Shown here piece after piece: positions 7,609-31,604 of a DNA stretch of 64,000 nucleotides (position 1 is its first letter; every line of letters begins with the position of its first letter). The position numbers and the translations under genes are program-made. The DNA is from Caulobacteraceae bacterium. Lineage in GTDB: Bacteria; Pseudomonadota; Alphaproteobacteria; Caulobacterales; Caulobacteraceae. The DNA lies in contig CANJLH010000006.1 in assembly GCA_947475415.1 (NCBI GenBank), positions 62,001 through 126,000 on the forward strand. The letters are read 5' to 3'. Below the pieces are notes generated by a model. The model ran no database searches. It was not told the origin of the DNA and was given only the letters and a program-made list of their open reading frames with translations.

Positions 7609-8207
7609 GGCTCCAGACACCCTCGCAGTTTCAACAGGCCTCGCCGGATCCAGCTCTTGACCGTTCCTAGGGGCGTATTCAGGCGATCAGCCAGGGCCTC
7701 ATAGGTGACGCCTTCGAAGAAGGCCGTGCGGATCACGTCCGCCGTGCGCGCATCCAGTTCGTCTAGACACCTATGCAGCGCCGCGGTGTCCTGGCTCTGT
7801 TCCATCAGGGCCGAGGCCAGGGGCGCAGGATCCGGCGCGATGACGTCCTCCACCGGCGCGGCATAGGCCAGCGGCCCGCGCGCCCGAAGCCGGTCGATGG
7901 CGCGGTTGCGTGCGATGGTCGCCAACCAAGCCATCGGGCTCGCGCGAGCCGTCTCATAGCGGTCCGCCCGGCGCCAGATGGTAAGATAGACTTCCTGCAA
8001 CACGTCCTCGGCCTCGTCGCGACGGGAGAGGATACGCAGGCAGACGCCAAAAAGCTTCGCCGAGGTCGCGTCATAGAGCCGCTTCAATGCGCCGCGGTCA
8101 CCCGCGGCGATGCGGGTCAACATTTCGACCAGGGGGTCATCAGCGGCCAAGGGTCGCTCCGTTCCGACATCCACGGCGAAGCTGCCTCGCCCGGCGTCGG
8201 GGGACAA
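7605..8207 (-). CDS. ECF sigma factor (SigK/RskA-linked type)
   Basis: 200-residue extracytoplasmic-function sigma factor with region 2 ([20 protein letters not shown], and [15 protein letters not shown]) and region 4 ([14 protein letters not shown], then [17 protein letters not shown]). It redirects RNA polymerase when its partner anti-sigma releases it. The frame opens at a TTG (8207); an in-frame ATG at 8123 would remove 28 residues before region 2 and lacks a clear ribosome site. It lies 13 bp downstream of the cupin gene and overlaps the anti-sigma gene. Pairing with an RskA-type anti-sigma and a FAS1 gene matches the SigK family arrangement known in actinobacteria. Confidence 0.92.
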
Positions 8208-8220
8208 GCCCCCTCCCGCG

Positions 8221-8655
8221 TCAGGGCGCCTTGCGCACCATATTGCCCTGCCCGGGCGGGGTCTGGTCGATGACCAGCAGGCTGGCGGGCTTACCGTCCA
8301 TGGCCCAGGCCTTGTGCCACTGGTCGATGGGGTCGACAGTGAATTCGCCCGCCTTGAGCTCCGAGGTGAGTCCAGTGTCCAGGTTCACCGCCTTCAGGCG
8401 GCCGGAAATCACATAGGCATAGCGAGGATAGGGATGCTTGTGGATCGGCAACACGCCGCCCGCCGGCAGGTCAGTGCGCGTGACAGTAACCGTCACCGGC
8501 CCCTGGGGCAGCGTGATCGGTTGGCCCGACAACGTCGTCGTCGCGACCCCGACTGGCGTGGATACCGGCCCGGGGGGATCGGCGGCGCTGGCGGCGGATG
8601 CGCAGAACGCGAGAGCGGCGATGGCGGCGGCGAGGCGGATCGGTTCGGGCTTCAT
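8221..8655 (-). CDS. Exported cupin-fold protein
   Basis: 144 residues: a signal peptide ([20 protein letters not shown]) and one cupin barrel. Cupin motif 1 is seen in [20 protein letters not shown], with the His-x-His metal ligands, and motif 2 in [13 protein letters not shown]. The ligand and activity are unknown; it may be a periplasmic metal-binding or sensor cupin. It is the first gene of the minus-strand unit cupin - sigma - anti-sigma - fasciclin, with a 13-bp gap to the sigma gene. It could therefore feed into the sigma/anti-sigma signal, which is inference from position only. Confidence 0.82.
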
Positions 8656-8794
8656 CAGTCCAGAATGGCGCCGAACGGCTTCGTCTTGAACCCCCTTCGG
8701 CAGCTTTCAGGCCATCGTCGAAACCGGTCGGAAAAGGTAAATTATTCCTTTCAGACCAATCCGTTGCGGAACGCCATAAATTTTGCTCAGCGCA

Positions 8795-8823
8795 TTGCGC
8801 AGCCGCCAAATTCCAACTACGAT
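8795..8823 (+). promoter_or_regulatory. Candidate promoter for the cold-shock gene
   Basis: TTGCGC and TACGAT are separated by 17 bp and point toward the cold-shock gene. Transcription starting near 8830 would give a 5' leader of about 135 bases. A long structured leader is typical of cold-shock mRNAs. Not tested; the hexamers are common enough for chance matches. Confidence 0.4.
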
Positions 8824-8964
8824 GGCGGCATCGAACTCGTAAGGTTCGGGCGTCTTTCCTCGTCCCCACACCGGACGCCGGACCTGCCTTCCGTTCCTTC
8901 GCGATCTTTGGTCAGCCGTGTGAATGCTTGCGCGGTTGGAATCTATCGAAGGAAATATACCTCT

Positions 8965-9171
8965 ATGCCTACCGGCACTGTGAAGTGGTTCAACGGAACC
9001 AAGGGCTACGGCTTCATCCAACCTGATGAGGGCGGCGCCGACGTGTTCGTCCATATTTCAGCCGTCGAACGCGCGGGCTTGCGCTCGCTCAACGAAGGTC
9101 AAAAAATCACCTATGAACTGGAACGCGACTCCCGCAGCGGCAAGACCGCCGCCGGCCAGTTGCAGGCCTAG
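8965..9171 (+). CDS. Cold-shock domain protein (CspA family)
   Basis: 68-residue single-OB-fold nucleic-acid chaperone. RNP1 (KGYGFIQP) and RNP2 (VFVHIS) are both intact, and the protein opens with [12 protein letters not shown], typical of the family. It binds single-stranded RNA or DNA and melts mRNA structure in the cold or in stationary phase. The ATG at 8965 is preceded by GAAGGA. A strong intrinsic terminator follows 41 bp after the stop, so the gene is a single-gene unit. Length and motifs leave no real alternative. Confidence 0.97.
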
Positions 9172-9212
9172 TTTTTCGGGCCGGCGATTTCGCCGCCCGA
9201 GCCAATATTCGT

Positions 9213-9247
9213 CAGGCCGGTCCCTTGCGGGGCCGGCCTGTTTTTTT
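9213..9247 (+). terminator. Intrinsic terminator of the cold-shock gene
   Basis: A 12-bp stem, CAGGCCGGTCCC against GGGGCCGGCCTG with one G-U pair and a TTGC loop, is followed directly by seven T. This is the clearest rho-independent terminator in the window. Confidence 0.92.
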
Positions 9248-19512: not shown

Positions 19513-19986
19513 ATGGAAAAAGTTCCGATGACCGTCGAGGGCTATCAAGCCCTCGACGAGGAATTGAAGCGTTTGAAAACTGTGGAACGGCCGGCCGTTA
19601 TCGCCGCGATCGGCGAAGCGCGGGCGCACGGAGACTTGTCCGAAAACGCGGAGTATCACGCCGCCAAGGACCGCCAGGGTTGGATTGAAGGCCAGATCGC
19701 CGAGATCGAGGACCGCATGGCTCGCGCTCAGGTGATCGATGTCTCGAAGTTGTCCGGCGGGCAGATCAAGTTCGGCGCGACGGTGTCGCTTATCGACGAG
19801 GATACCGAACTGGCGGCCCGCTACCAGATCGTCGGCGAACATGAGGCCGACGTGAAGCAGGGCAAGATCTCCATCTCCTCGCCCATCGCCCGCGCGATGA
19901 TCGGCAAGGAAAATGGCGATGTGGTCGAGGTCAATACGCCCACCGGCGTCAAGGCCTATGAGATCACCAAGGTCGAGTGGGTGTAG
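19513..19986 (+). CDS. greA: Transcription elongation factor GreA
   Basis: 157 residues, the usual size. It rescues backtracked RNA polymerase by stimulating transcript cleavage through the secondary channel. The N-terminal coiled coil carries the acidic tip [16 protein letters not shown] (about 42-57). The C-terminal FKBP-like domain contains [13 protein letters not shown] and [14 protein letters not shown]. An open frame extends 43 codons upstream of the ATG at 19513, but that extension has no GreA likeness, so this start is chosen. It is followed 42 bp later by an ELM1-like gene. Confidence 0.98.
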
Positions 19987-20028: not shown

Positions 20029-21012
20029 TTGACCGCAGACGCCGCCCCGCAACTTTCTATCTGGGCTGTCTCTGACGGCCGCGCAGGCATGCGCGACCAG
20101 GCGCTCGGTCTCGCCGAGGCCGTAGCCCGGTTGCGGCCATCCGCAATCACCGTCAAGACCATCGCCTGGCGGGCCGGCGTCGGCCGCCTGCCAACCGCGC
20201 TGAACTTCGCGCCGCGGCTGACCCTGAACCCCGCCAGCGCCATTGCGCCGCCCTGGCCTCAGTTGTGGATCGCCGCCGGGCGCGCCACCCTGGCGCTTTC
20301 GTCGCGCATGCGGCGGTGGTCGAGCGGGCGGACGTTCGTCGTGCAGACCCAGGACCCGCGGATGGACGCCGAGGCCTTCGACCTGGTGATCCCGCCCACT
20401 CACGATGGCCTGACCGGCGCCAATGTGTTCCCGATCCTGGGCGCGCCGCACAGGGTGACGGCGGCACGGCTTGCGGCGGATGTCGCCAGGTTCTGGCCGG
20501 CGATCGAGCCCCTGCCCCACCCCAGGATCGCGATGCTGGTGGGTGGCGCCTCCAAGGCCCATGATCTCAGCTCCAGCCGAGCCTGGACCTTGGCCGGCGA
20601 CCTGGAGAGATGCGTGCAGGAGACGGCGGGCTCCCTGATGCTGACATTTTCCCGGCGCACGCCCGCCCGGGCCCGCGCTCTAATCACCGAACGCCTGGCC
20701 CCGCTTCCGGGAATCATCTGGGACGAGACCGGCGACAATCCGTTCTTCGCCTTCCTGGGCGCTGCCGACGCCATCCTGGTCACCGAGGACTCGGTGGGCA
20801 TGGCGGTTCAGGCGGCGGCGACGGGAAAGCCGGTGATGATCGTTCCGATGGACGGCGGCTCGGAAAGATTTCGCCGGTTCCACGACGACCTTGCCGCTTG
20901 TGGCGCAGCACGGCCTTTCGCCGGGCGCCTGGAGACCTGGAGTTATCCGCCCTTGACCGAAACCGACCGCGCCGCCGCCGAAGTGGTGCGGCGACTGGAG
21001 GCGCGATCATGA
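20029..21012 (+). CDS. ELM1-family (mitochondrial-fission-protein-like) protein
   Basis: 327 residues from a TTG start with GGGGCGGAG about eight bases upstream; an ATG at 20089 is the alternative. The family (ELM1, former DUF1022) is named after a plant mitochondrial division protein, but bacterial members have a glycosyltransferase-B-like layout. Features: SIWAVSDGRAGMRDQALGLA at the N-terminus, GGASKAHDLSS near 185, and LVTEDSVGMAVQAAATGKPV plus VPMDGGSERFRRF near the C-terminus. The gene ends in an ATGA overlap with pseG, so the two are probably translated together, which suggests a job in surface-sugar or envelope assembly. Biochemical activity unknown. Confidence 0.83.
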   Translation: MTADAAPQLSIWAVSDGRAGMRDQALGLAEAVARLRPSAITVKTIAWRAGVGRLPTALNFAPRLTLNPASAIAPPWPQLWIAAGRATLALSSRMRRWSSGRTFVVQTQDPRMDAEAFDLVIPPTHDGLTGANVFPILGAPHRVTAARLAADVARFWPAIEPLPHPRIAMLVGGASKAHDLSSSRAWTLAGDLERCVQETAGSLMLTFSRRTPARARALITERLAPLPGIIWDETGDNPFFAFLGAADAILVTEDSVGMAVQAAATGKPVMIVPMDGGSERFRRFHDDLAACGAARPFAGRLETWSYPPLTETDRAAAEVVRRLEARS

Positions 21013-22037
21013 ACGGCCCGTCGATCCTGTTCGTTACCGACGCTGGACCGCAGGTGGGCGGCGGCCATGTGATGCGTTCGTTGACGCTGGCGAAAGCGCT
21101 TGCCGAGCGCGGTGCGGCGACCGCTTTTCTAGAGGCCCCCGGTGTCGGCGCCATCCTCGACGCCTTCGCCCCCGACATGCCGCGGCTGAACGCTGTCGCG
21201 GCGGCGGGATATGACGCCATGGTCTTTGACCACTACGGCATGGCGGCCGAGGCGCAGCGCGCACTGGCGCAGGGGCGTCCCGCGCTGGTCATCGACGACC
21301 TCGCCGACCGCCCCCTGTACGCAGACCTGGTGGTGGACGCAGGTCCGCAACGGGCGGCGGCGGACTATGACGGACTGATCCCCGCCGGCGCGCAGCTGTT
21401 GCTGGGCCCGACCTACGCGCCGGTGCGTCCGGAATTCGCCGTCCTGCGCGACCGCACGCTGGGTCAGAGATCCGGCGACGTGCGTCGCATCCTGGTTTCC
21501 CTGGGGCTCACCGATCTGGATGGAATCACCGGCCGCGTCCTTGACCGCATCCGGCCCCGCATCGGAGACATCGCGCTCGACATCGTCATGGGATCCGGCG
21601 CGCCCAGCCGCGCCGGCCTGGAGCGCCTGGCCCGGCGCGACCCGCGCCTGACCATTCATGTGGACACCCCCGACATGGCGGCGATCACTGCGGCGGCGGA
21701 CATAGCGGTAGGCGCCGGCGGTTCCAGCGCCTGGGAGCGCTGCACGCTGGCGTTGCCCAGCCTGATGCTGGTGCTGGCCGACAATCAGCGGCCCGCCGCA
21801 ATGGCCCTGGCCGAGGCCGGCGCAGCGCTGATCCTTGACGCCGCCGCGCCGGAATTCGATCGTGAGTTTGACCGCGCCTTCCTGCAGTTGTTGAACAACG
21901 GCTTGGTCCGGGCTCGGCTCGCCGCCAAGAGCGCCGAACTTTGTGACGGGCTGGGCGCAGCCCGCGTCGCCAAAGCCTTTCTGGATATCCTGGCCGAGCG
22001 CCTCCAATTACGCCGAAACCTGGATAATTCTCCTTAA
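21009..22037 (+). CDS. pseG: PseG-like UDP-sugar hydrolase
   Basis: 342 residues. PseG removes UDP from the altropyranose intermediate of pseudaminic-acid synthesis. The N-terminal half has the glycine loop GGGHVMRSLTLAKALAERG with the conserved His (about 18-36). The C-terminal half is MurG-like, with VGAGGSSAWERCTLALPSLM near 235-255. Its ATG overlaps the ELM1-like stop codon. In Caulobacter the homologue is called FlmD and acts in flagellin glycosylation. No pseB, pseC or pseH homologue lies in the window, so the early steps must be encoded elsewhere. Confidence 0.87.
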   Translation: MNGPSILFVTDAGPQVGGGHVMRSLTLAKALAERGAATAFLEAPGVGAILDAFAPDMPRLNAVAAAGYDAMVFDHYGMAAEAQRALAQGRPALVIDDLADRPLYADLVVDAGPQRAAADYDGLIPAGAQLLLGPTYAPVRPEFAVLRDRTLGQRSGDVRRILVSLGLTDLDGITGRVLDRIRPRIGDIALDIVMGSGAPSRAGLERLARRDPRLTIHVDTPDMAAITAAADIAVGAGGSSAWERCTLALPSLMLVLADNQRPAAMALAEAGAALILDAAAPEFDREFDRAFLQLLNNGLVRARLAAKSAELCDGLGAARVAKAFLDILAERLQLRRNLDNSP

Positions 22038-22106
22038 CCGACTTTTTGCACCCATGGGCGCAGGATGGGATGGAGCCGCATTGGGGCGGCGGGCTGAGCA
22101 AGCGTC

Positions 22107-23294
22107 ATGAACAGGGTCCGGATCGTCGGCGGCGGTCTCGCGGGAGTTCTGGCGGCGCTCGAGGCGCATCGCCTGGGCGCGCGACGCATTGAGCTGCATG
22201 AACATTTCGACCAGTTGGGCGGCGAGCTATGGCCCAGGGTTGAGCATGGCCTGGAACTGCGCCGGCGCTGCGTCTATTTCGGCGGCCGCGAGGATCCGGT
22301 GCGCAAGGCGTTGGAATGGCGCGGCGTGGCGTTCGAGGATGTCGCCGACCATTGCGGCTCGCTCAGTCCCAGCCCACGCGGCGAGGCCCTGGCCACCCGC
22401 GATTTCTCAGGCCCCGTGCTTTACGCCCGTGACAACGCCTACCAGCGGCTGGCCGGCGAGGCGCTGACCGACCGGATCCGCGCCTACCCGGCCGACCTTC
22501 ACGGCCCGCTCACCCGCTATTGCCAGTGGCGCCTCGGCGTCTGGCTGGACGAGGTGCACGCCAGCGCCGCCGGCGCAATCGGCCTGGAGAAGGTGCGCCT
22601 GACCAGCATGCCGCCGCCCGAAACTGTCCCGGAAGCGTCCCTGCCGCGCGACGGCTTCGCCGCCATGTTCCTCGGTCTGCGCCGGGCGCTGGAAGGCCTC
22701 GGCGTAGAGCTTCATTTCAACTCTCTCGTCTCGCCCCGTGAACTTATCGAAACGGACGACGGGGAGACAGTGAATGTCTGGACCGCCGCGCCGGGGCCGC
22801 TGTTCGACGCCATCGGCCGTCCGCAGCCGAAGTCGGTGGCCGATACCGTGGCCAGTTATGTGATCGCCGCACGCTGGGCGGGACCGACGCCATTCCAGTT
22901 GCGGAACTTCACCGCCAAGGGCTCGGTGTTCCGCCTGTCCTTCTACGAGAGCCGCGGCGAGACTCTGCTAAGCGCCGAATGCGTCAATGAAGTCTCCGAT
23001 AAGGCGCTGCGCCGCGAGATCCAAAGGCTGATGGCCGGATTCGGCGGCCAGACCCTGAAACTCGGCGAAACTCTGGCTTGCGATGTATCCACCCGCTCCG
23101 ATTGCCTCTCTACCGAGACCGCCCGCCGCCTGCTGGTGCTTCGCTCTGCGCTGGCGCGCAAGTGCGGTCCGAACTTCATCACCGGCGCCTGGGAAGCCTG
23201 GGACATGAACGAACGTTTCCGCCGCATTTCCCGCGCCCTGGCGCCGGCCCTGACCGTTGTTGAGGACATCACGCAATCGCGGGCCGCCGCTTGA
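22107..23294 (+). CDS. FAD/NAD(P)-binding oxidoreductase-like protein in the sugar cluster
   Basis: 395 residues. An N-terminal Rossmann fold for FAD is clear: VRIVGGGLAGVLAALEAHRL, then an acidic residue in LHEHFDQLGG (about 28-39). The remainder matches no activity I can name; overall layout is closer to UDP-galactopyranose-mutase or amine-oxidase-like flavoproteins than to simple reductases. It lies 69 bp after pseG and its stop overlaps the start of the SpsF-like gene (TTGA). It is therefore part of the same unit, and probably modifies a nucleotide sugar or handles a sugar-cluster intermediate. The function is inference from location. Confidence 0.7.
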   Translation: MNRVRIVGGGLAGVLAALEAHRLGARRIELHEHFDQLGGELWPRVEHGLELRRRCVYFGGREDPVRKALEWRGVAFEDVADHCGSLSPSPRGEALATRDFSGPVLYARDNAYQRLAGEALTDRIRAYPADLHGPLTRYCQWRLGVWLDEVHASAAGAIGLEKVRLTSMPPPETVPEASLPRDGFAAMFLGLRRALEGLGVELHFNSLVSPRELIETDDGETVNVWTAAPGPLFDAIGRPQPKSVADTVASYVIAARWAGPTPFQLRNFTAKGSVFRLSFYESRGETLLSAECVNEVSDKALRREIQRLMAGFGGQTLKLGETLACDVSTRSDCLSTETARRLLVLRSALARKCGPNFITGAWEAWDMNERFRRISRALAPALTVVEDITQSRAAA

Positions 23295-23980
23295 TCCTGG
23301 CGATCCTGCAGGCGCGGATGAGTTCATCTCGCCTGCCCGGCAAGGTGATGGCCGACGTCGCCGGCGCGCCAATGATTGCGCGACAGGTTGAGCGGCTGCG
23401 CCGCGCTCGACGTATCGACCGCCTTGTGGCGGCCACTAGCGACCAATCCTCTGATGACCCTTTGGCGGACTATTGTGCGACCTTGGACCTGCCGGTGTTC
23501 CGGGGTTCGCTGGATGATGTGCTGGGCAGATTCCAGGGCGCGGCCGCCGCCTTCGGGCCGCCTGAAACGATCGTGCGGCTCACCGCCGACTGCCCTCTGG
23601 CCGATTGGGCCGTCATCGATCAGGTGATCGAGACCCACCTGGCCGGCGGCTTCGACTACACCAACAATGTCGCGCCGGAGCGGACCTTCCCCCACGGCCT
23701 GGATGTCGAGGTGATGACCGCCGATGCCCTGGATACGGCTGGCCGAGAGGCCGAGGATCCCTATGAGCGCGAGCATGTGACGCCGTTTATCTATCGCCAC
23801 CCGGAGCGCTTCCGCCTGGGGAGCGTGACCAGCGATGCGCCGGCACCCGACCTGCGCTGGACCGTCGACACTCCCCAGGACCTGGACTTCGTGCGCTACG
23901 TCTATGGAGAGTTGTACGCCGCGGACCCGGCTTTCGGATCGGCCGCCATTCGGGCCTTGCCCCGCAACTCATCCCTCTGA
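23291..23980 (+). CDS. SpsF-type cytidylyltransferase (PseF/FlmC-like)
   Basis: 229 residues from a TTG overlapping the previous stop. The N-terminal LAILQARMSSSRLPGKVM is the nucleotide-binding signature of the CTP-transfer family (SpsF, NeuA, PseF). RLTADCPLAD (near 95) supplies the metal-binding Asp, and FPHGLDVEVMTADAL and DLRWTVDTPQDLDFVRYVY are typical SpsF blocks. It most likely makes a CMP-activated nonulosonate; in this setting CMP-pseudaminic acid is the natural product, but the substrate is not proven. It converges on pseI with a 13-bp gap. Confidence 0.82.
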   Translation: MILAILQARMSSSRLPGKVMADVAGAPMIARQVERLRRARRIDRLVAATSDQSSDDPLADYCATLDLPVFRGSLDDVLGRFQGAAAAFGPPETIVRLTADCPLADWAVIDQVIETHLAGGFDYTNNVAPERTFPHGLDVEVMTADALDTAGREAEDPYEREHVTPFIYRHPERFRLGSVTSDAPAPDLRWTVDTPQDLDFVRYVYGELYAADPAFGSAAIRALPRNSSL

Positions 23981-23993
23981 GCGGCCGTTCGCC

Positions 23994-25043
23994 TCAGGCC
24001 AGCATGTCCCAGGTCAGCGGTTCCCCCCGGTGCAGGGCGCGCTTGGCCGTGCGGCCGATAACGGCGTCGAGATGCTCTGGCGAAAGCCCCAGCCCCGGGC
24101 GCACCGAGCGCACACTGGCGCGGCTGAGCGGGGCTCCGGCCGGCACGTCGGCGGTGACATATAGCGAGCGGCGGAACTGTATGTTGCCGCGCTCGGAGCC
24201 CAGCAGGTCGTAGTTGACCCGGCCAAGCGCGCGCCAGGCGGCCTTGCAGTCGGCCACAAGGGCGGTGAACTCCGCAGGCTCCAGGCTGAAGGCGGCATCG
24301 GGCCCGCCATCCGCGCGGGCCAGGGTGAAGTGCTTTTCAATCACACAGGCGCCCAGGGCGATCGCCGCCACCGAGGCCGCCGATCCGTGCGTATGGTCCG
24401 AGAGCCCGATCGGACAGCCGAACCGCGCCGCCATGTCCGGCACGGTGCGGACATTGGCGTCGGTGATGTCGGCCGGATAGCTGGACACGCAGTGCAACAG
24501 GATCACGCCGGCTGCCCCGGCCCCGAGCGCCGCGTCGCGGGCCGCCTCGATCTCCACCAGATTGGCCATGCCGGTGGAGATGATCAGCGGCTTGCCCTGG
24601 GCCGCTGCGTAGCGGATCAACGGCAGGTCCACAGCCTCGAAAGAGGCGATCTTGTAGGCCGGCGCCCCGAGGCCGGCGAGCAGGTCCACCGCCGTCTCGT
24701 CGAACGGGCTCGAGAACAGGATCACCCCGGCCGCCCGGGCGCGCTCGAACAAGGCCGCGTGCCATTCAAACGGCGTCTGGGCCTCGCGATAAAGCTCGTG
24801 CAGCGTGCGGCCGTCCCACAGGCCGCCGTGGATGCGGAACTCCGGCCTGTCCACGTCCAACGTGATGGTGTCGGCGGTATAGGTCTGGATCTTCACCGCG
24901 TCGCAGCCGGTGGCCGCCGCAGCATCGATCATCTGAAGCGCGCGGCCCAGATCGCCGTTGTGGTTGGCCGACAGTTCACAGATCACGAAGGGTTCGTGGT
25001 CGGGTCCGATACGGCGGCCGGCGATCTCGATCTCGGGTGACAT
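23994..25043 (-). CDS. pseI: Pseudaminic acid synthase PseI (NeuB family)
   Basis: 349 residues. It condenses phosphoenolpyruvate with a 2,4-diacetamido hexose to give pseudaminic acid. The NeuB barrel (1-about 285) has ICELSANHNGDLGRALQMID, CDAVKIQTYTADTIT and IGLSDHTHGSAASVAAIALG. The C-terminal SAF antifreeze-like domain (about 290-349) includes RSLYVTADVPAGAPLSRASV and VRPGLGLSP. The wording NGDL and AVKIQTYT fits PseI better than sialic-acid synthase. It is encoded opposite to pseG and the cytidylyltransferase and converges with them. Together they support flagellin or surface glycan synthesis. Confidence 0.88.
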   Translation of the reverse strand: MSPEIEIAGRRIGPDHEPFVICELSANHNGDLGRALQMIDAAAATGCDAVKIQTYTADTITLDVDRPEFRIHGGLWDGRTLHELYREAQTPFEWHAALFERARAAGVILFSSPFDETAVDLLAGLGAPAYKIASFEAVDLPLIRYAAAQGKPLIISTGMANLVEIEAARDAALGAGAAGVILLHCVSSYPADITDANVRTVPDMAARFGCPIGLSDHTHGSAASVAAIALGACVIEKHFTLARADGGPDAAFSLEPAEFTALVADCKAAWRALGRVNYDLLGSERGNIQFRRSLYVTADVPAGAPLSRASVRSVRPGLGLSPEHLDAVIGRTAKRALHRGEPLTWDMLA

Positions 25044-25157: not shown

Positions 25158-26141
25158 ATGACCAGCCAAGCTCCCCGCGCCGTCCGCTGCCTGATCGTGG
25201 GATCAGGACCGGCCGGCTACACCGCCGCCGTCTATGCCGCCCGCGCGCTGCTCAAGCCCGTGCTGATCGAGGGCATCCAGCCCGGCGGCCAGCTCACCAT
25301 CACCACCGACGTGGAGAACTATCCCGGCTTCGCCGAAGTGATCCAGGGCCCCTGGCTGATGGAGCAGATGAAGGCGCAGGCCGAGCACGTGGGGACCGAG
25401 ATCATCAGCGACATCGTGGTGCGCGCCGACCTGTCGTCGCGGCCCTTCCGACTGGAATGCGACTCCGGCGCGGTGTGGCTGGCGGAGACCCTGATCATCG
25501 CCACCGGCGCCCAGGCCAAGTGGCTGGGCCTGGACTCCGAGCAGAAGTTCCAGGGCTTCGGCGTCTCCGCCTGCGCCACCTGCGACGGATTTTTCTATCG
25601 CGGCAAACAGGTGGCGGTGCTGGGCGGCGGCAATACCGCGGTGGAGGAGGCGCTCTATCTCACCAACTTCGCATCCAAGGTCACCCTGGTCCACCGCCGC
25701 GACGAACTGCGCGCCGAACGTATTCTCCAGGAGCGGTTGTTCGCCCACCCCAAGGTCGAGGTGGTCTGGGATCACGCCCTGGACGAGGTGCTGGGAACCG
25801 AGAATCCCCTGGGGGTCACCGGGGCGCGGCTAAAGAACGTCAAGTCCGGCGAGACCCGCGAAATCGCCGTTGACGGCGTGTTCGTGGCCATCGGCCACGC
25901 CCCGGCCTCGGAGTTGTTCAAGGGCCAGCTGGCCATGGACGCCGCCGGCTATCTGGACGTGAAGCCGGGGACCGCCTCTACGGCCATCGCCGGAGTCTAC
26001 GCCGCCGGCGACGTCACCGACGACGTCTACCGCCAGGCGGTCACCGCGGCGGGCATGGGCTGCATGGCGGCGCTGGAGGCGGTGCGTTACCTGGCCGAGG
26101 CGGATCACCACGCCAACCGCCGCGAACCGGCCAGCGCCTGA
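25158..26141 (+). CDS. trxB: Thioredoxin reductase TrxB
   Basis: 327-residue FAD- and NADPH-dependent enzyme that keeps thioredoxin reduced. The FAD motif GSGPAGYTAAVYAARA is near residue 16 and the redox-active pair lies in CATCDGFFYRG (near 141-144). The NADPH motif GGGNTAVEEALYL follows near 160, and the C-terminal FAD motif GVYAAGDVTDDVYRQAV near 290. Length is typical. It converges on the TadG-like gene with a 10-bp gap. Confidence 0.97.
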   Translation: MTSQAPRAVRCLIVGSGPAGYTAAVYAARALLKPVLIEGIQPGGQLTITTDVENYPGFAEVIQGPWLMEQMKAQAEHVGTEIISDIVVRADLSSRPFRLECDSGAVWLAETLIIATGAQAKWLGLDSEQKFQGFGVSACATCDGFFYRGKQVAVLGGGNTAVEEALYLTNFASKVTLVHRRDELRAERILQERLFAHPKVEVVWDHALDEVLGTENPLGVTGARLKNVKSGETREIAVDGVFVAIGHAPASELFKGQLAMDAAGYLDVKPGTASTAIAGVYAAGDVTDDVYRQAVTAAGMGCMAALEAVRYLAEADHHANRREPASA

Positions 26142-26151
26142 GAGGGCGGCC

Positions 26152-27579
26152 CTAATTACGAAGGACGGCGTCCACGCCGTTGACGGGGCCGACTCCAGCC
26201 GGCACCGGAACACTTGAAGCGGCGTAATTGGAGTTGATCACCAGGTTGGGCGAACCGACCATGTGGATCGCTCGGGCTACGATCACGGTCCAGGCCGACT
26301 GATCACCGATGGAGTTACTGGCGCCGCTGATCTCCAGGATCGCGTTGGGGATGTAGATCGTCCCCAAGAGTAAGCGGGCGTTACTTGAGGAAATCTGGAA
26401 AGTCTCGCGGTTTTCCCGTGTGGTGGCGAGCACGAACCCGGCCAGCTTGCCCGTCTTGCGACCTTCCAACTTGACCTGGCTGGAGTCCTTGAATGTGAAC
26501 TTGGAATCCTTGTCGAACACCAACACCACGTCGCTGCCCTGGATGATCGAATTGTCCGCCAGTTGCAGATGCGAGCCGACAAAATAGTGTTCGCCGGGCA
26601 CGAGATAGATTGTCGAGCCTGCAGCGGCGGTCAAATTCCCACAGTGAACGCCCGGCGCCAGCACATAGATTCCGACGCTGAACAGCTGATCCGTTGGCGC
26701 GCACTGCACCACCGTGCCGTTGTCCAGGGTGACGGTCGAGATCTTGCTGGTGACTTGCGTCACCGCATTAGTAAGCGTGTTCGTCGCGCTCACCGTGGAT
26801 GTGGCCATGACCTTGCCAGCCCCGCTTACCTTCGTCGTAGGCGCGATAGTGAGCGTAGTCGTCGGCGTGCTCACGAGCTGAGTTGTCAGCGAGGTGTACC
26901 ACTGGGTAGCCGATGGCAGCAGATCAACGCTGGTGAAGGGATCCATGATGGCCGGCGCACTGGTCTGAGCCGTTGGAAGGATGGTCCCGGTGGCCGTGCC
27001 GGCCGTCTGCACACGGGCCGCGCGCATCACCGCGGCGTTCGCGACCGATATGTCGGCGTTGGCGTGCAACATGCATTCGCCAGCTGTGATCTGGGCCTGA
27101 TCCTGCATTGAAAGGGTATCGTCCTTGACGGCGCCCGAGGTCAGCACGCACAGGGGCGCGCGCGCCATGGTGCCCGCGGTAGCCTGGACGTCTATCTTCC
27201 AGCCGCCGGGGGGAAGCAGGTTGCCGAAGAATGAGGCCCTGCGTCCGTCGATGCTGACCGTCACACCATGACCGCTGTCGATCGACGTCGTAGTCACCGA
27301 ATAGGTGAGCCGATCGGAAAGCCCTGAAAGCTGATAATCGGCAAAGGCCTTGGCGCGCGCCGCGACGCCTTGCGTGTCGGACACTGTGAGCTGCCTGGCC
27401 GCGGCCAGGGCGGCGGCGTCGGCGACATCCTGGGCCCGGCTGCGATCGGCGCGGACAGAGGCCAGGTCGATGGAGCCAGCCACCAACACGGCGAGCACCG
27501 GCAGGGCCATGGCGAATATGATCGCGGTACCGCCCGCGGTGTCGCCGAGAAGCCGGCTGAAAATTCTCGGGCGGCGCAT
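26152..27579 (-). CDS. TadE/TadG-like pilus-type surface protein
   Basis: 475 residues. The N-terminus is a TadG-like anchor: an arginine-rich start, then AGGTAIIFAMALPVLAVLVA as the membrane segment, followed by the family block DLASVRADRSRAQDVADAAALAAARQL. The C-terminal two-thirds is Thr/Ser-rich and looks beta-structured (about 300-470, with repeated short strands such as DNSIIQGSDVVLVF). It probably sits on the periplasmic face and assists a Flp/Tad-type pilus or another surface structure. The main tad operon is not in the window. The gene starts 3 bp after the response-regulator gene, so they likely form one unit. Confidence 0.78.
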   Translation of the reverse strand: MRRPRIFSRLLGDTAGGTAIIFAMALPVLAVLVAGSIDLASVRADRSRAQDVADAAALAAARQLTVSDTQGVAARAKAFADYQLSGLSDRLTYSVTTTSIDSGHGVTVSIDGRRASFFGNLLPPGGWKIDVQATAGTMARAPLCVLTSGAVKDDTLSMQDQAQITAGECMLHANADISVANAAVMRAARVQTAGTATGTILPTAQTSAPAIMDPFTSVDLLPSATQWYTSLTTQLVSTPTTTLTIAPTTKVSGAGKVMATSTVSATNTLTNAVTQVTSKISTVTLDNGTVVQCAPTDQLFSVGIYVLAPGVHCGNLTAAAGSTIYLVPGEHYFVGSHLQLADNSIIQGSDVVLVFDKDSKFTFKDSSQVKLEGRKTGKLAGFVLATTRENRETFQISSSNARLLLGTIYIPNAILEISGASNSIGDQSAWTVIVARAIHMVGSPNLVINSNYAASSVPVPAGVGPVNGVDAVLRN

Positions 27580-28163: not shown

Positions 28164-31100
28164 GTGACCATGCCGCCTCAGAAACCGAAACCGGCAACGA
28201 CACCGGCGCGCCGCTCGATCCGCGGCAAGCTGACCGCGCTGGTGCTGGCCAGCGTGGGAGTTTCGGTGACCCTGGTGACCGGGGTGTCGACCTGGCGCGA
28301 CGGCCGGCGCGAAACCGCTCTGCAGACGGAGCGGTTGACAGCGACAGCCCAGGTCATCGCGTCCCTGTCCGGCGAGGCCGCGGCCCGGCTTGATGTGGAG
28401 GGCGCCTATCGCGCCGTCCGCGCCATCGGCCAGATGCGCGATGTGGCCTATGCGCGGGTCGAGACCACCGATGGCCGGCTGCTGGCGGAAACCGGGACCG
28501 GCGCGCGCCTCACCACCGATGCGGAGGTCCGCGGCGGCGAGCGCGTCTCGCTGCTTCAAACTCTGCGGTCCCACACGATCGAAATCCGGCAGCCGGTGAT
28601 CTACGCCCGCCGTGAGGTTGGACGAGTCGTGTTGCTGGGCGAGCTTCAGGGCGCGGCGGGCCGGCTGTTCGCCAGCCTGGTGGCGAGCCTGTTGGCGGGC
28701 GCCGTGGCGACCGCCTTCGGCCTGATGGTGGCCTGGCGGCTGCAGCGGCGCATCGCAGAGCCGATCCTGGCCCTCAGGCGCTCCATGGACGAGGTGCGCG
28801 CCAGCCACGACTACGGCCGTCAGGTCGACGTGGCCGCCGACGACGAGGTGGGCGAACTGGTCGACGGTTTCAACGCCATGCTGGGCCAGATCCGACGGCG
28901 CGACCGCACCATCGCCGCCCAGGTCGCGGGGCTGGAGCGCACCGTGGCGGAGCGCACCGCCGATCTCGTCGCCGCCAAGGACGAGGCCGACTTGGCCAAT
29001 AGCGCCAAGTCCGACTTCCTGGCCGCCATGAGCCATGAGATCCGCACGCCGATGAACGGCATCATGGTGATGGCCGAGATGCTGGCCGCCGGCGACCTGC
29101 CGACGCGCCAGCGCCGCTTCGCCGAGGTGATCGCCAAGTCGGGCTCCAGCCTGCTGGCGATCATCAATGACATCCTCGACTTCTCCAAGATCGAAGCCGG
29201 CAAGATGGAGCTGGAGGTCGCGCCGGTGGATCCGGACGACGTCGCCGACGATGTCGCCAGCCTGTTCTGGGAAAAGGCCCGTTCCAAGGGGCTGGACCTG
29301 GCGGTGTTCGTCGATCCTCAGGTCCCGCGCATGATCGCGGCCGATTCCGTGCGCCTGCGCCAGGTGATCGGCAACCTGGTCAACAACGCCATCAAGTTCA
29401 CCGAGGCCGGCGGCGTAATGATCGAGGTCACCGCGCCAGGCCCGGAGCGCCTGCGGGTGGCGGTCCACGACACCGGCATCGGCATTCCGGCGGACAAGAT
29501 TCCCGACCTGTTCACCGCTTTCAGTCAGGCCGACCAGTCCACCACCCGCAAGTTCGGCGGCACAGGCCTGGGCCTGACCATCTGCAAGCGTCTGGTGGAG
29601 GCCATGGGCGGGGGGCTGTCGGTGGAGAGCGAGATCGGCGCAGGCTCGATCTTCGCCTTCGAGGTCCCGATGTCGCCCCTGGAGCCCGCGCGGCCTCTAT
29701 CCGCGCCAGCCGGCCGCATCGCGGCGCTCAGGGTTGAGCGGCCATACGCCCGCCTCATACTTCAAGGCTACGCCGAGCGCGCCGGACTTGGACTGGCCGA
29801 AACGGGCGGCGACCTGGTGATCTGCGAGGCTGCCGATGTCGGCGAGCGCGCCGGCGAGGCGCCGGTGATCTGCCTTGGCGAATATGGCGACGACACACCC
29901 GCCCGGCTGCTGCGCGAAGGACGTGTGGAGGCCGTGCTGACCTTGCCCGTCCGTCGCCGCGACCTGGAGGCGGTGCTGACCGCCTGGCGCGAGGGCCGGA
30001 CCATCGCCGATGCGGTCGCCAGCGCCGCCCAGGCCGAGCGGCAGGAGATCCCCAGTTACGCCGGCCGCCGGGTGCTGGTGGCGGACGACAGCGCCGTGAA
30101 CCGCGAGGTGGCTATGGAAGCGCTTTCGCGCCTCGACGCAGCGGCCACCTTGGTCAGCGACGGTCGTGAAGCGGTGGACGCCGCCTTGGCCGAGCGGTTC
30201 GACATGGTGCTGATGGACGGGTCCATGCCCGAAATGGACGGCTTCGACGCCACCCTTGAGATCCGCCGCCGCGAAGCGGAGCTGGGGCGCGCGCCAACCC
30301 CGATCGTGGCCCTCACCGCCCACGTCGTCGGCGCTTCGGCGGACGCTTGGCGGCGCGCCGGCATGAACGGCGTGCTGCACAAGCCATTTACACTGGCCGC
30401 GCTGGCCCGCACGCTTGGCCAGTTCATGCCAGCCTCCGAACGCCCGCCGGAAATCGAGCCCGCGGCGCAGCCGATCGTGATCGTCTCCGACCTACTCGAC
30501 CCGGAAGTGACCGCCGATCTCGCCGCCATGGCGGCCGGCGGGCGCGGCGACTTCGTGGAACGGATCCGCAAGCTCTACCGTGACAACGCACCCGACGCGG
30601 CGCTCAAGGTGGTGGACGCCGCCGAAGCCTGCGACGCCGAGGCCGCAGCCCGTGCGGCCCATGCGCTGAAATCCATGAGCCTCAACATCGGCGCCCGAGC
30701 CGTCGCCGACCTGTCGCAGAAAATCGAGCACGCAGCCCGCGAGCACGGCGTGGTGGAAAGCAGCGCGGCGCAGGAACTCTATCGAAAACTCCTGGCCACC
30801 ATCGATGTCCTGGGCGGGCCCACCCGGCCGATGGACCCAGACCTGGCGCTGATGGCGGACCTGGACCTTGCGGCCGAACGCGGCGAGCTTCGCATGGTCT
30901 ACCAGATGCAGGTGGACCGCGACGGGGTCGGGATCTCCGGAATGGAGAGCCTGGTGCGCTGGCGCCATCCCGTCCATGGCGAGGTGAGCCCGGCCCGCTT
31001 CATTCCCCTGGCCGAGCGCCACGGCCGCATCCGCGGCCTCACCCGTTGGGTGCTCGACCGGGTGATGACGGAAACCGCCGACCTTGCGATCCAGGTGGGG

Positions 31101-31604
31101 GTCAACGCCTCTGCCCTGGAGTTCGCCGACCCGGCCTTCGTCGATGACGTGGCCATGCAGCTCGCCGAACGCCGCTTCGACCCTGCTCGCCTGGAGATCG
31201 AGATCACCGAGACAGCGATCCTCACCGACGCCGAGGAGGTCAAGCGCAACATCGACCGTCTGCACGATATGGGCGTACGCATCGCCCTGGATGACTTCGG
31301 CGTCGGCTATTCCAGCCTCAATCACCTGCGGCTCTACGACTTCGACAAGTTGAAAATCGACCGCGCCTTCGTGATCGAATGCGCCCGCAGCATGGAGTCC
31401 GCCGCCCTGGTTCACGGCGTTGTCGCTATGGGCCGCGCCCTGGGCATGAAGGTGGTGGCCGAAGGGGTGGAAACCGAGGCGCAGCACAAGTTCCTCAAGC
31501 TCGCCGGCGTTCACGGCCTGCAGGGCTACCTGTTCGCCAGGCCCGAGCCTATCGAAGCTGTACGCGAGCGGCTGGGCGTCGAAGCACGGCGGGCTGCGGG
31601 GTAG
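28164..31604 (+). CDS. Hybrid histidine kinase with receiver, Hpt and EAL domains
   Basis: 1146 residues from the GTG at 28164 (ATG two codons later is also possible). Order: transmembrane helix near 22-40, periplasmic sensor, second helix near 168-190, HAMP (about 191-245), DHp with His291 ([10 protein letters not shown]), HATPase_c with the N box ([14 protein letters not shown]) and DTGIGIP, a degenerate receiver-like segment (about 512-615), an intact receiver with Asp685 ([12 protein letters not shown]), an Hpt domain with His833 ([13 protein letters not shown]), and a C-terminal EAL domain from about 900. The EAL signature reads ESL (Glu928), with [19 protein letters not shown] and AEGVET kept, so c-di-GMP hydrolysis is plausible. 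A whole phosphorelay is thus fused to a second-messenger enzyme. Confidence 0.93.

Follow-up and report, generated by a model that had tools for sequence, protein, structure and literature searches.

The locus described here occupies positions 20029-25043 of a 64,000-nucleotide stretch of DNA, hereafter the window, from a Caulobacteraceae bacterium; the window covers positions 62001-126000 of contig 6 in an assembly of 3.92 Mb, 40 contigs and 98% completeness. We think it somewhat probable that the locus belongs to a dispersed pathway for pseudaminic acid, located between an ELM1-family gene and trxB, and that its flavin adenine dinucleotide (FAD) protein is a redox enzyme that tailors the sugar and descends from a module replacing PseH. 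The locus is ordinary in its pathway genes and in ELM1 and unusual in its flavoprotein, and the presumed ancestral module is the more interesting object. The following genes were called in the locus and at its borders (window coordinates):

19528-19986, plus strand: greA, left border (PF03449 and PF01272 over cut-off); an ELM1 neighbour in many Alphaproteobacteria
20029-21012, plus strand: ELM1-family protein (PF06258), TTG start (336 bits, cut-off 27)
21009-22037, plus strand: pseG, uridine diphosphate (UDP)-sugar hydrolase, FlmD-like (TIGR03590, 224 bits, cut-off 154)
22107-23294, plus strand: flavoprotein, an orphan member of the methyltransferase-FAD-WbqC module family (from predicted GR2 fold, context and tree), hereafter FAD
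23291-23980, plus strand: SpsF-type cytidylyltransferase, TTG start (CTP_transf_3, PF02348, 105 bits)
23994-25043, minus strand: pseI, pseudaminic acid synthase, the neuB of Caulobacter (TIGR03586, 489 bits, cut-off 340)
25158-26141, plus strand: trxB, right border (PF07992, 172 bits); an ELM1 neighbour in many Alphaproteobacteria

A previous annotation made from the letters alone, the sequence-only reading, had described a plus-strand unit with start/stop overlaps on which pseI converges. The coordinates, the convergence (13 nt between SpsF and pseI) and two of the three junctions agree with this: ELM1 and pseG share ATGA (21009-21012), and FAD and SpsF share TTGA (23291-23294). The third junction does not, since the end of pseG at 22037 and the start of FAD at 22107 are separated by a gap of 69 nt. 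The gene order PseG-FAD-SpsF-PseI also occurs in locus L091 (identical to L038) and in L094, where the contig ends before pseG.

The sequence-only reading had also taken the locus for a partial cluster from which pseB, pseC and pseH are missing. Their absence is real at the locus and misleading for the organism, because all three are encoded elsewhere in the same genome with scores over cut-off, PseB and PseC adjacent to each other (C16:62124-64263, 508 and 476 bits) and PseH on a further contig (C22:28418-28885, 130 bits, cut-off 93); the description as a partial cluster is therefore not supported. PseG is present in one copy. The window synthase was assigned to PseI and not to NeuB, as it stayed below the cut-off of the NeuB_NnaB model (284 bits, cut-off 400), and PseI matches were found in 90 of 100 congeneric genomes, 87 of them over cut-off. 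Compared with the PseB-C-H-G-I-F pathway of Campylobacter and Helicobacter, the source genome has PseB, PseC, PseH, PseG and PseI over curated cut-offs, whereas its SpsF-type cytidylyltransferase scores 23 bits with the PseF model, far under the cut-off of 206, and does not qualify as PseF. The module-bearing relatives outside Caulobacter, described below, differ from that pathway in having no PseH over cut-off.

In the available part of a study on Caulobacter crescentus (PMC7591256), FlmC is a cytidylyltransferase without similarity to PseF and is co-encoded with FlmD (PseG). The flm genes described there resemble those of the source genome, which belongs to the same family, in covering the same steps with a similar dispersal, in placing near pseG a cytidylyltransferase whose similarity does not reach the PseF level, and in having pseI nearby. 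The window differs by the extra FAD gene, by the contiguity of pseG, FAD, the cytidine monophosphate (CMP)-transferase and pseI, and by the position of the transferase after FAD. Because SpsF homologues lie directly upstream of PseG in the Caulobacter-type loci L085, L090, L093 and L098, the window SpsF protein is probably a CMP-sugar synthetase equivalent to FlmC. If the SpsF-type enzyme acts as the cytidylyltransferase, all six pathway steps are covered in the source genome, as judged from sequence.

The sugar made by this pathway would reach flagellin in the source organism. Beside PseH (L192) we saw no gene of the size of FlmG, as there is in Caulobacter, in an inspection of that locus that included no genome search for FlmG; by eye, the frame beside PseH resembles a secreted repeat-type protein. 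Elsewhere in the source genome (C1:166053-170000, L049), two DegT-type aminotransferase genes and a Gfo/Idh gene probably specify a second amino-sugar route.

Of 36 congeneric genomes, 12 had a homologue of FAD; none was present in 24 genomes from other families of the order. Nine of 192 genomes sampled across the class had some FAD match, which extended beyond the N-terminus only in the source genome and in G214, and a phylum-wide sample of 397 genomes contained four with a match at E ≤ 1e-12 (the source genome, G080, G214 and G513). We compiled 48 FAD loci from Phenylobacterium, Caulobacter, Erythrobacter, Pontixanthobacter and relatives. Rows L044, L045 and L098, which have cut or broken FAD frames, were dropped before counting. 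PseG, PseI or SpsF is encoded beside FAD in 47 of the 48; only L092, a contig of 5.4 kb with methyltransferase, FAD and WbqC genes, has none of the three. The FAD gene is thus not found mostly in unrelated contexts, and the proposal that it belongs with nonulosonate genes and makes a modified sugar is upheld as the best reading. Its companions vary: PseI occurs in 42 loci, PseG in 40 (in 39 upstream and on the same strand), ELM1 in 35 and SpsF in 29. The suggested ELM1-pseG-FAD-SpsF set is not conserved as such, ELM1 and SpsF being variable companions.

The same counts bear on the explanation that FAD is a passenger, which recombination brought beside pseG, into a variable slot, and which has nothing to do with the sugar. 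In the genus, the genes between pseG and pseI do vary, with PseH, PhyH, FdtA or GT61 present in some of 14 FAD-lacking pseI loci (18 comparison loci minus the FAD-bearing L111, L112 and L115 and minus L110, a second pseI locus in a genome with FAD; L113, L114 and L116 count as FAD-lacking at the pseI locus only, not genome-wide). The most distant homologue, that of G214 (L178), lies in a different sugar cluster, among three epimerase-type genes, one SIS-domain gene and one carbamoyltransferase gene, with no pse genes. However, the nonulosonate context is shared by Caulobacteraceae and Erythrobacteraceae, and G513, related at the level of the phylum only, also has FAD in a pse operon, and we regard a passenger as most unlikely. 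In L104, an FAD-lacking relative, an FdtA domain fused to a short DegT-type aminotransferase stretch is encoded between pseG and pseI (L104:6738-7517). In L098, a metagenome-assembled genome (MAG) of the Caulobacterales, tblastn splits the FAD gene between two frames (segments 7998-8822 and 8824-9237, together L098:7998-9237); this gene, located between methyltransferase and WbqC genes, is a broken or mis-sequenced copy.

Pfam gave only N-terminal Rossmann matches for the window FAD protein, each under its cut-off. Its structure model (pLDDT 77, pTM 0.72) best matches the folds of protoporphyrinogen oxidase (3lov, Z 21.4 in VIA) and UDP-galactopyranose mutase (UGM; 4dsg, Z 20.3, and 3hdq, TMt 0.56), and further matches are desaturases and L-amino-acid oxidases, the classes not being well separated. 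The predicted fold over residues 1-387 (1-385 in VIA) and the retained GxGxxG motif (G8-G13) place the protein among the GR2 flavoproteins, which include protoporphyrinogen oxidase, amine and amino-acid oxidases and UGM; it differs from these in that sequence similarity is limited to the N-terminus and no known subfamily scores over cut-off.

The sequence-only reading had pointed to UDP-sugar mutases, and a UGM-like enzyme would turn the pyranose form of a UDP-amino-sugar intermediate into the furanose with no net redox change. The surroundings suit UDP-sugar chemistry, and UGM structures are among the top fold matches, but protoporphyrinogen oxidase scores equally high and the shared superfamily fold does not tell mutases from protoporphyrinogen oxidases or amine and amino-acid oxidases. 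The sequence comparisons failed to single out a mutase: GLF (PF03275) gave no match in the window FAD protein at E ≤ 0.01, and hhalign aligned the FAD profile with E. coli Glf over columns 6-85 only, the FAD-binding N-terminus, at a probability of 27%. UGM requires two Arg for the diphosphate, whereas a 21-row alignment has no invariant Arg and, beyond position 52, only R330 as a nearly invariant one; a furanose would not be a normal PseI substrate. Both points speak against a mutase. We consider a mutase very improbable. From its predicted fold and context, the window protein is probably a redox enzyme that tailors a sugar of the pseudaminate pathway; nothing relevant to a flavin or oxidoreductase role in flagellin nonulosonic acids was among the matches listed in our literature search.

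The older partners of FAD are a methyltransferase and WbqC, neither of which is encoded at the window locus. An S-adenosylmethionine (SAM)-methyltransferase gene upstream and a WbqC gene (PF08889) downstream accompany FAD in 25 of the 48 loci, and in no locus is only one of the two present. The operon pseB-pseC-pseF-pseG-methyltransferase-FAD-WbqC-pseI was found in seven Erythrobacteraceae loci and in L190 of G513, a genome related at phylum level only. The module methyltransferases of Erythrobacteraceae and Caulobacteraceae may not be orthologues. All five pse proteins of L190 are over cut-off; in L080 PseG falls under it (129 versus 154 bits), with the other scanned pse proteins over. L190 also has a flagellin gene, separated from pseI by about 2.3 kb that include an integrase-core gene.

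No PseH match was found at the module loci. We then tabulated PseH over whole genomes, using 53 of them (26 with the module, 26 with FAD and no adjacent module, and G214, whose L178, not being a pse locus, was dropped). PseH over cut-off occurs in none of the 15 module genomes outside Caulobacter and in 25 of the 26 genomes with FAD and no adjacent module, the miss being G017, an 83%-complete MAG. Excluding C. segnis, in which the PseH hit is barely over cut-off, the latter count becomes 24 of 25. Fisher's test of PseH against the module gave 6e-10 for the 39 tree rows outside Caulobacter and 3e-5 for all 50 rows, values from which kinship is not removed. The methyltransferase-FAD-WbqC genes between pseG and pseI thus seem to take the place of PseH in some other bacteria.

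Modelling of a module WbqC (the L082 protein, pLDDT 91) gave a BshC-like predicted fold: the best VIA match is BshC (4wbd, Z 15.4, 223 of 235 residues, root-mean-square deviation 3.0), and the next are tRNA synthetases at Z 8.6 and lower. A sequence search of the PDB gave nothing convincing for WbqC. BshC is the presumed cysteine ligase acting on glucosaminyl-malate in the consulted portion of a review (PMC4360819), and an excerpt on N-methyl-bacillithiol describes a SAM-methyltransferase, NmbA, that methylates the nitrogen of the bacillithiol cysteine (PMC12719100). On the evidence of these excerpts, the module resembles the bacillithiol enzymes in that a protein with a BshC-like predicted fold and a SAM-methyltransferase occur together in an amino-sugar pathway; its WbqC differs from BshC in being less than half as long, with 11% identity, and the window locus itself has neither gene.

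Because of the BshC-like predicted fold of WbqC and the analogy with N-methylation by NmbA, we propose an amino-acyl chemistry for the module. The FAD family most likely arose within the three-gene module, in which the 4-amino group that PseC leaves would receive from WbqC an acyl group resembling an amino acid, to be methylated by the methyltransferase and oxidised by the flavoenzyme. In the lineage of the window, the methyltransferase and WbqC genes would have gone from the locus, with PseH, encoded elsewhere, carrying out ordinary acetylation. The flavoprotein would have stayed in the operon in altered form, and most likely oxidises either an intermediate of the pseudaminate pathway or the completed sugar, so that the product would be a modified pseudaminic acid. 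The locus would then be the pseG, CMP-transferase and pseI part of a dispersed pathway of the Caulobacteraceae type, flanked by ELM1 and trxB, which are old neighbours of each other. The most detailed version of this proposal is tentative, and we find it rather doubtful as a whole; it holds that a BshC-like WbqC ligase replaces PseH and, with the methyltransferase and flavoenzyme, places a methylated and oxidised amino-acyl group on the 4-amino sugar, an alternative acylation of position 7 of pseudaminic acid, and that the window flavoprotein is a freed descendant now modifying ordinary pseudaminic acid.

We found no literature joining WbqC with pseudaminic acid and a methyltransferase, or WbqC with flagellin and FAD, and no stated function of WbqC in the excerpts retrieved, where the word is sometimes used in another sense. 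An insert between fliA and fliC of Dickeya zeae WH1 is similar in placing genes for a SAM-methyltransferase, WbqC and a DegT-family aminotransferase by flagellin, and differs in that no FAD gene is named in the available part of that report (PMC9650423).

A tree of 51 FAD rows, with 13 duplicate loci left out, placed the window row in a 23-row clade without the module (support 100/99), whose sister is the module row L054 (100/96). From this tree and the G513 operon, we infer that the module is the ancestral setting of FAD. A second orphan, L115 of G070, stands among module rows; G070 has PseH, and its neighbours L046, L047 and L072 have none over cut-off. The orphan branches are long (window 0.51, L088 0.70, L115 0.71, stem of L038/L094 1.09), and long branches meet near the root. 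Conservation in 92% or more of 25 module rows defined a set of 137 columns, which we compared in 23 orphans, leaving out L088, L115 and L178. Columns kept in at least 90% of these orphans include the dinucleotide motif and, near the C-terminus, the WE pair, and those kept in none of the 23 include H143, Y290, Y357, Y389, K391 and K394 (L081 numbering). The orphan rows of the tree have open frames of 391-428 aa, and the ratio of nonsynonymous to synonymous substitution (dN/dS) was 0.09-0.31 in nine close orphan pairs and 0.07-0.26 in seven module pairs, dS being saturated in two of the latter (L079/L080 and L069/L079). The orphans thus keep the scaffold and are under purifying selection, and their contacts have probably changed.

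The long branches could also mean that the window FAD protein is no longer a catalyst and, after losing its partners, is in decay or now has a structural or regulatory role alongside PseG or SpsF. Such an explanation would fit the 73 of 137 module-conserved columns that are not kept in 90% of the 23 orphans, several of them in none, and the loss of the GG motif in L038. On the other hand, the frames are open and the dN/dS values of the nine orphan pairs are low enough to count against decay, the window protein keeps the N-terminal dinucleotide motif and W362/E363, and its frame overlaps that of SpsF by four nucleotides. We judge loss of catalysis unlikely and retain a tailoring redox enzyme as the preferred function of the window protein.

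Several observations weigh against this function or against its origin in a PseH-replacing module. The window protein keeps 98 of the 137 module-conserved columns and only 64 of the 137 are kept in at least 90% of the 23 orphans, one orphan (L038) is without the GG part of the motif, and the pairs used for dN/dS exclude the window FAD, which has no relative close enough; the activity of the window protein may have changed or been lost. The G214 homologue sits in another nucleotide-sugar cluster and not in a pse locus. Neither WbqC nor the methyltransferase is encoded beside the window FAD, a statement that covers the locus, the rest of the genome being unsearched for them. All 11 Caulobacter-type genomes with the module (two of them MAGs not labelled Caulobacter) also have PseH, which could reflect two separate nonulosonate routes there. 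The association of the module with absence of PseH comprises three phylogenetically independent contrasts, two or three of them in the expected direction and none opposite (sign test, p 0.25-0.5), and the PseH calls depend on the cut-off of one model, 8 of the 15 module genomes having weaker hits of 22-56 bits (cut-off 93). As to WbqC, Foldseek gave no match at E ≤ 0.001, the best being a tRNA synthetase at 0.013, and according to the part of the review cited above the activity of BshC itself is undemonstrated in vitro (PMC4360819).

ELM1 had been included in the unit by the sequence-only reading, and its neighbourhoods do not bear this out. PF06258 occurs in 159 of 192 alphaproteobacterial genomes. 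We examined 20 hand-picked ELM1 loci on sufficiently long contigs, all from other genera and 19 of them from other families: greA and/or trxB lies within about 8 kb of ELM1 in 15 of them and both do in 11, and the window ELM1 has the matching borders, greA on the left and trxB on the right. No match to PseG, PseI, SpsF or FAD was found near ELM1 in any of the 20 (tblastn with Caulobacteraceae queries, E ≤ 1e-6, which a distant PseG might escape). ELM1 is absent from all seven Erythrobacteraceae FAD loci. The simplest account would be that pse genes were inserted between ELM1 and trxB in Caulobacteraceae.

If ELM1 instead had a function within the unit, such as that of the glycosyltransferase using the sugar, the 4-nt ATGA overlap with pseG would be functional and its presence at 35 of the 48 FAD loci would be expected. 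This is quite unlikely in view of the 15 of 20 loci from other genera where greA and/or trxB accompany ELM1 and pse genes do not, the wide occurrence of ELM1 in the class, its absence from the Erythrobacteraceae FAD loci and the genes (FBPase, GNAT, RTX or others) that intervene between ELM1 and pseG in many relatives. A relation of ELM1 to PseG at the profile level was likewise rejected (probability 1.5%). No ELM1 relative was found in the PDB by sequence (best E 0.14), and no literature linking bacterial "mitochondrial fission ELM1" to a glycosyltransferase was found.

In one Phenylobacterium group (L059-L064, L068 and L097), genes for FBPase, a PhyH-type dioxygenase and a TylF-type O-methyltransferase lie between ELM1 and SpsF-pseG-FAD-pseH, spanning about 3.4-6.1 kb in most loci; this arrangement suggests a further decoration of the sugar. 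The interval between ELM1 and the pse genes holds a large RTX-repeat gene with 15 HemolysinCabind stretches in L070 (L070:2829-5453), and a large RTX-repeat gene occupies the same slot in L065, L072, L074 and L076.

For the window, these results explain the apparent lack of pseB, pseC and pseH, remove ELM1 from the unit and make the FAD gene a candidate for a tailoring enzyme. To our knowledge, the enzymes for many nonulosonate N-acyl variants are not known, and the module, if our proposal is true, would point, by a route that can be tested, to a new class of nonulosonates and would give WbqC a first function. Nonulosonic acids with varied N-acyl groups occur on flagellins and surface glycans of many bacteria, and in pseudaminic and legionaminic acids these groups vary at C5 and C7, according to the available sections of PMC6388019.

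Directly past trxB, the window encodes a Tad/TadE-G-like pilus-assembly protein on the minus strand (26152-27579), and positions 28164-31604 encode a single protein of 1146 aa that combines HAMP, histidine kinase, receiver, Hpt and EAL domains.

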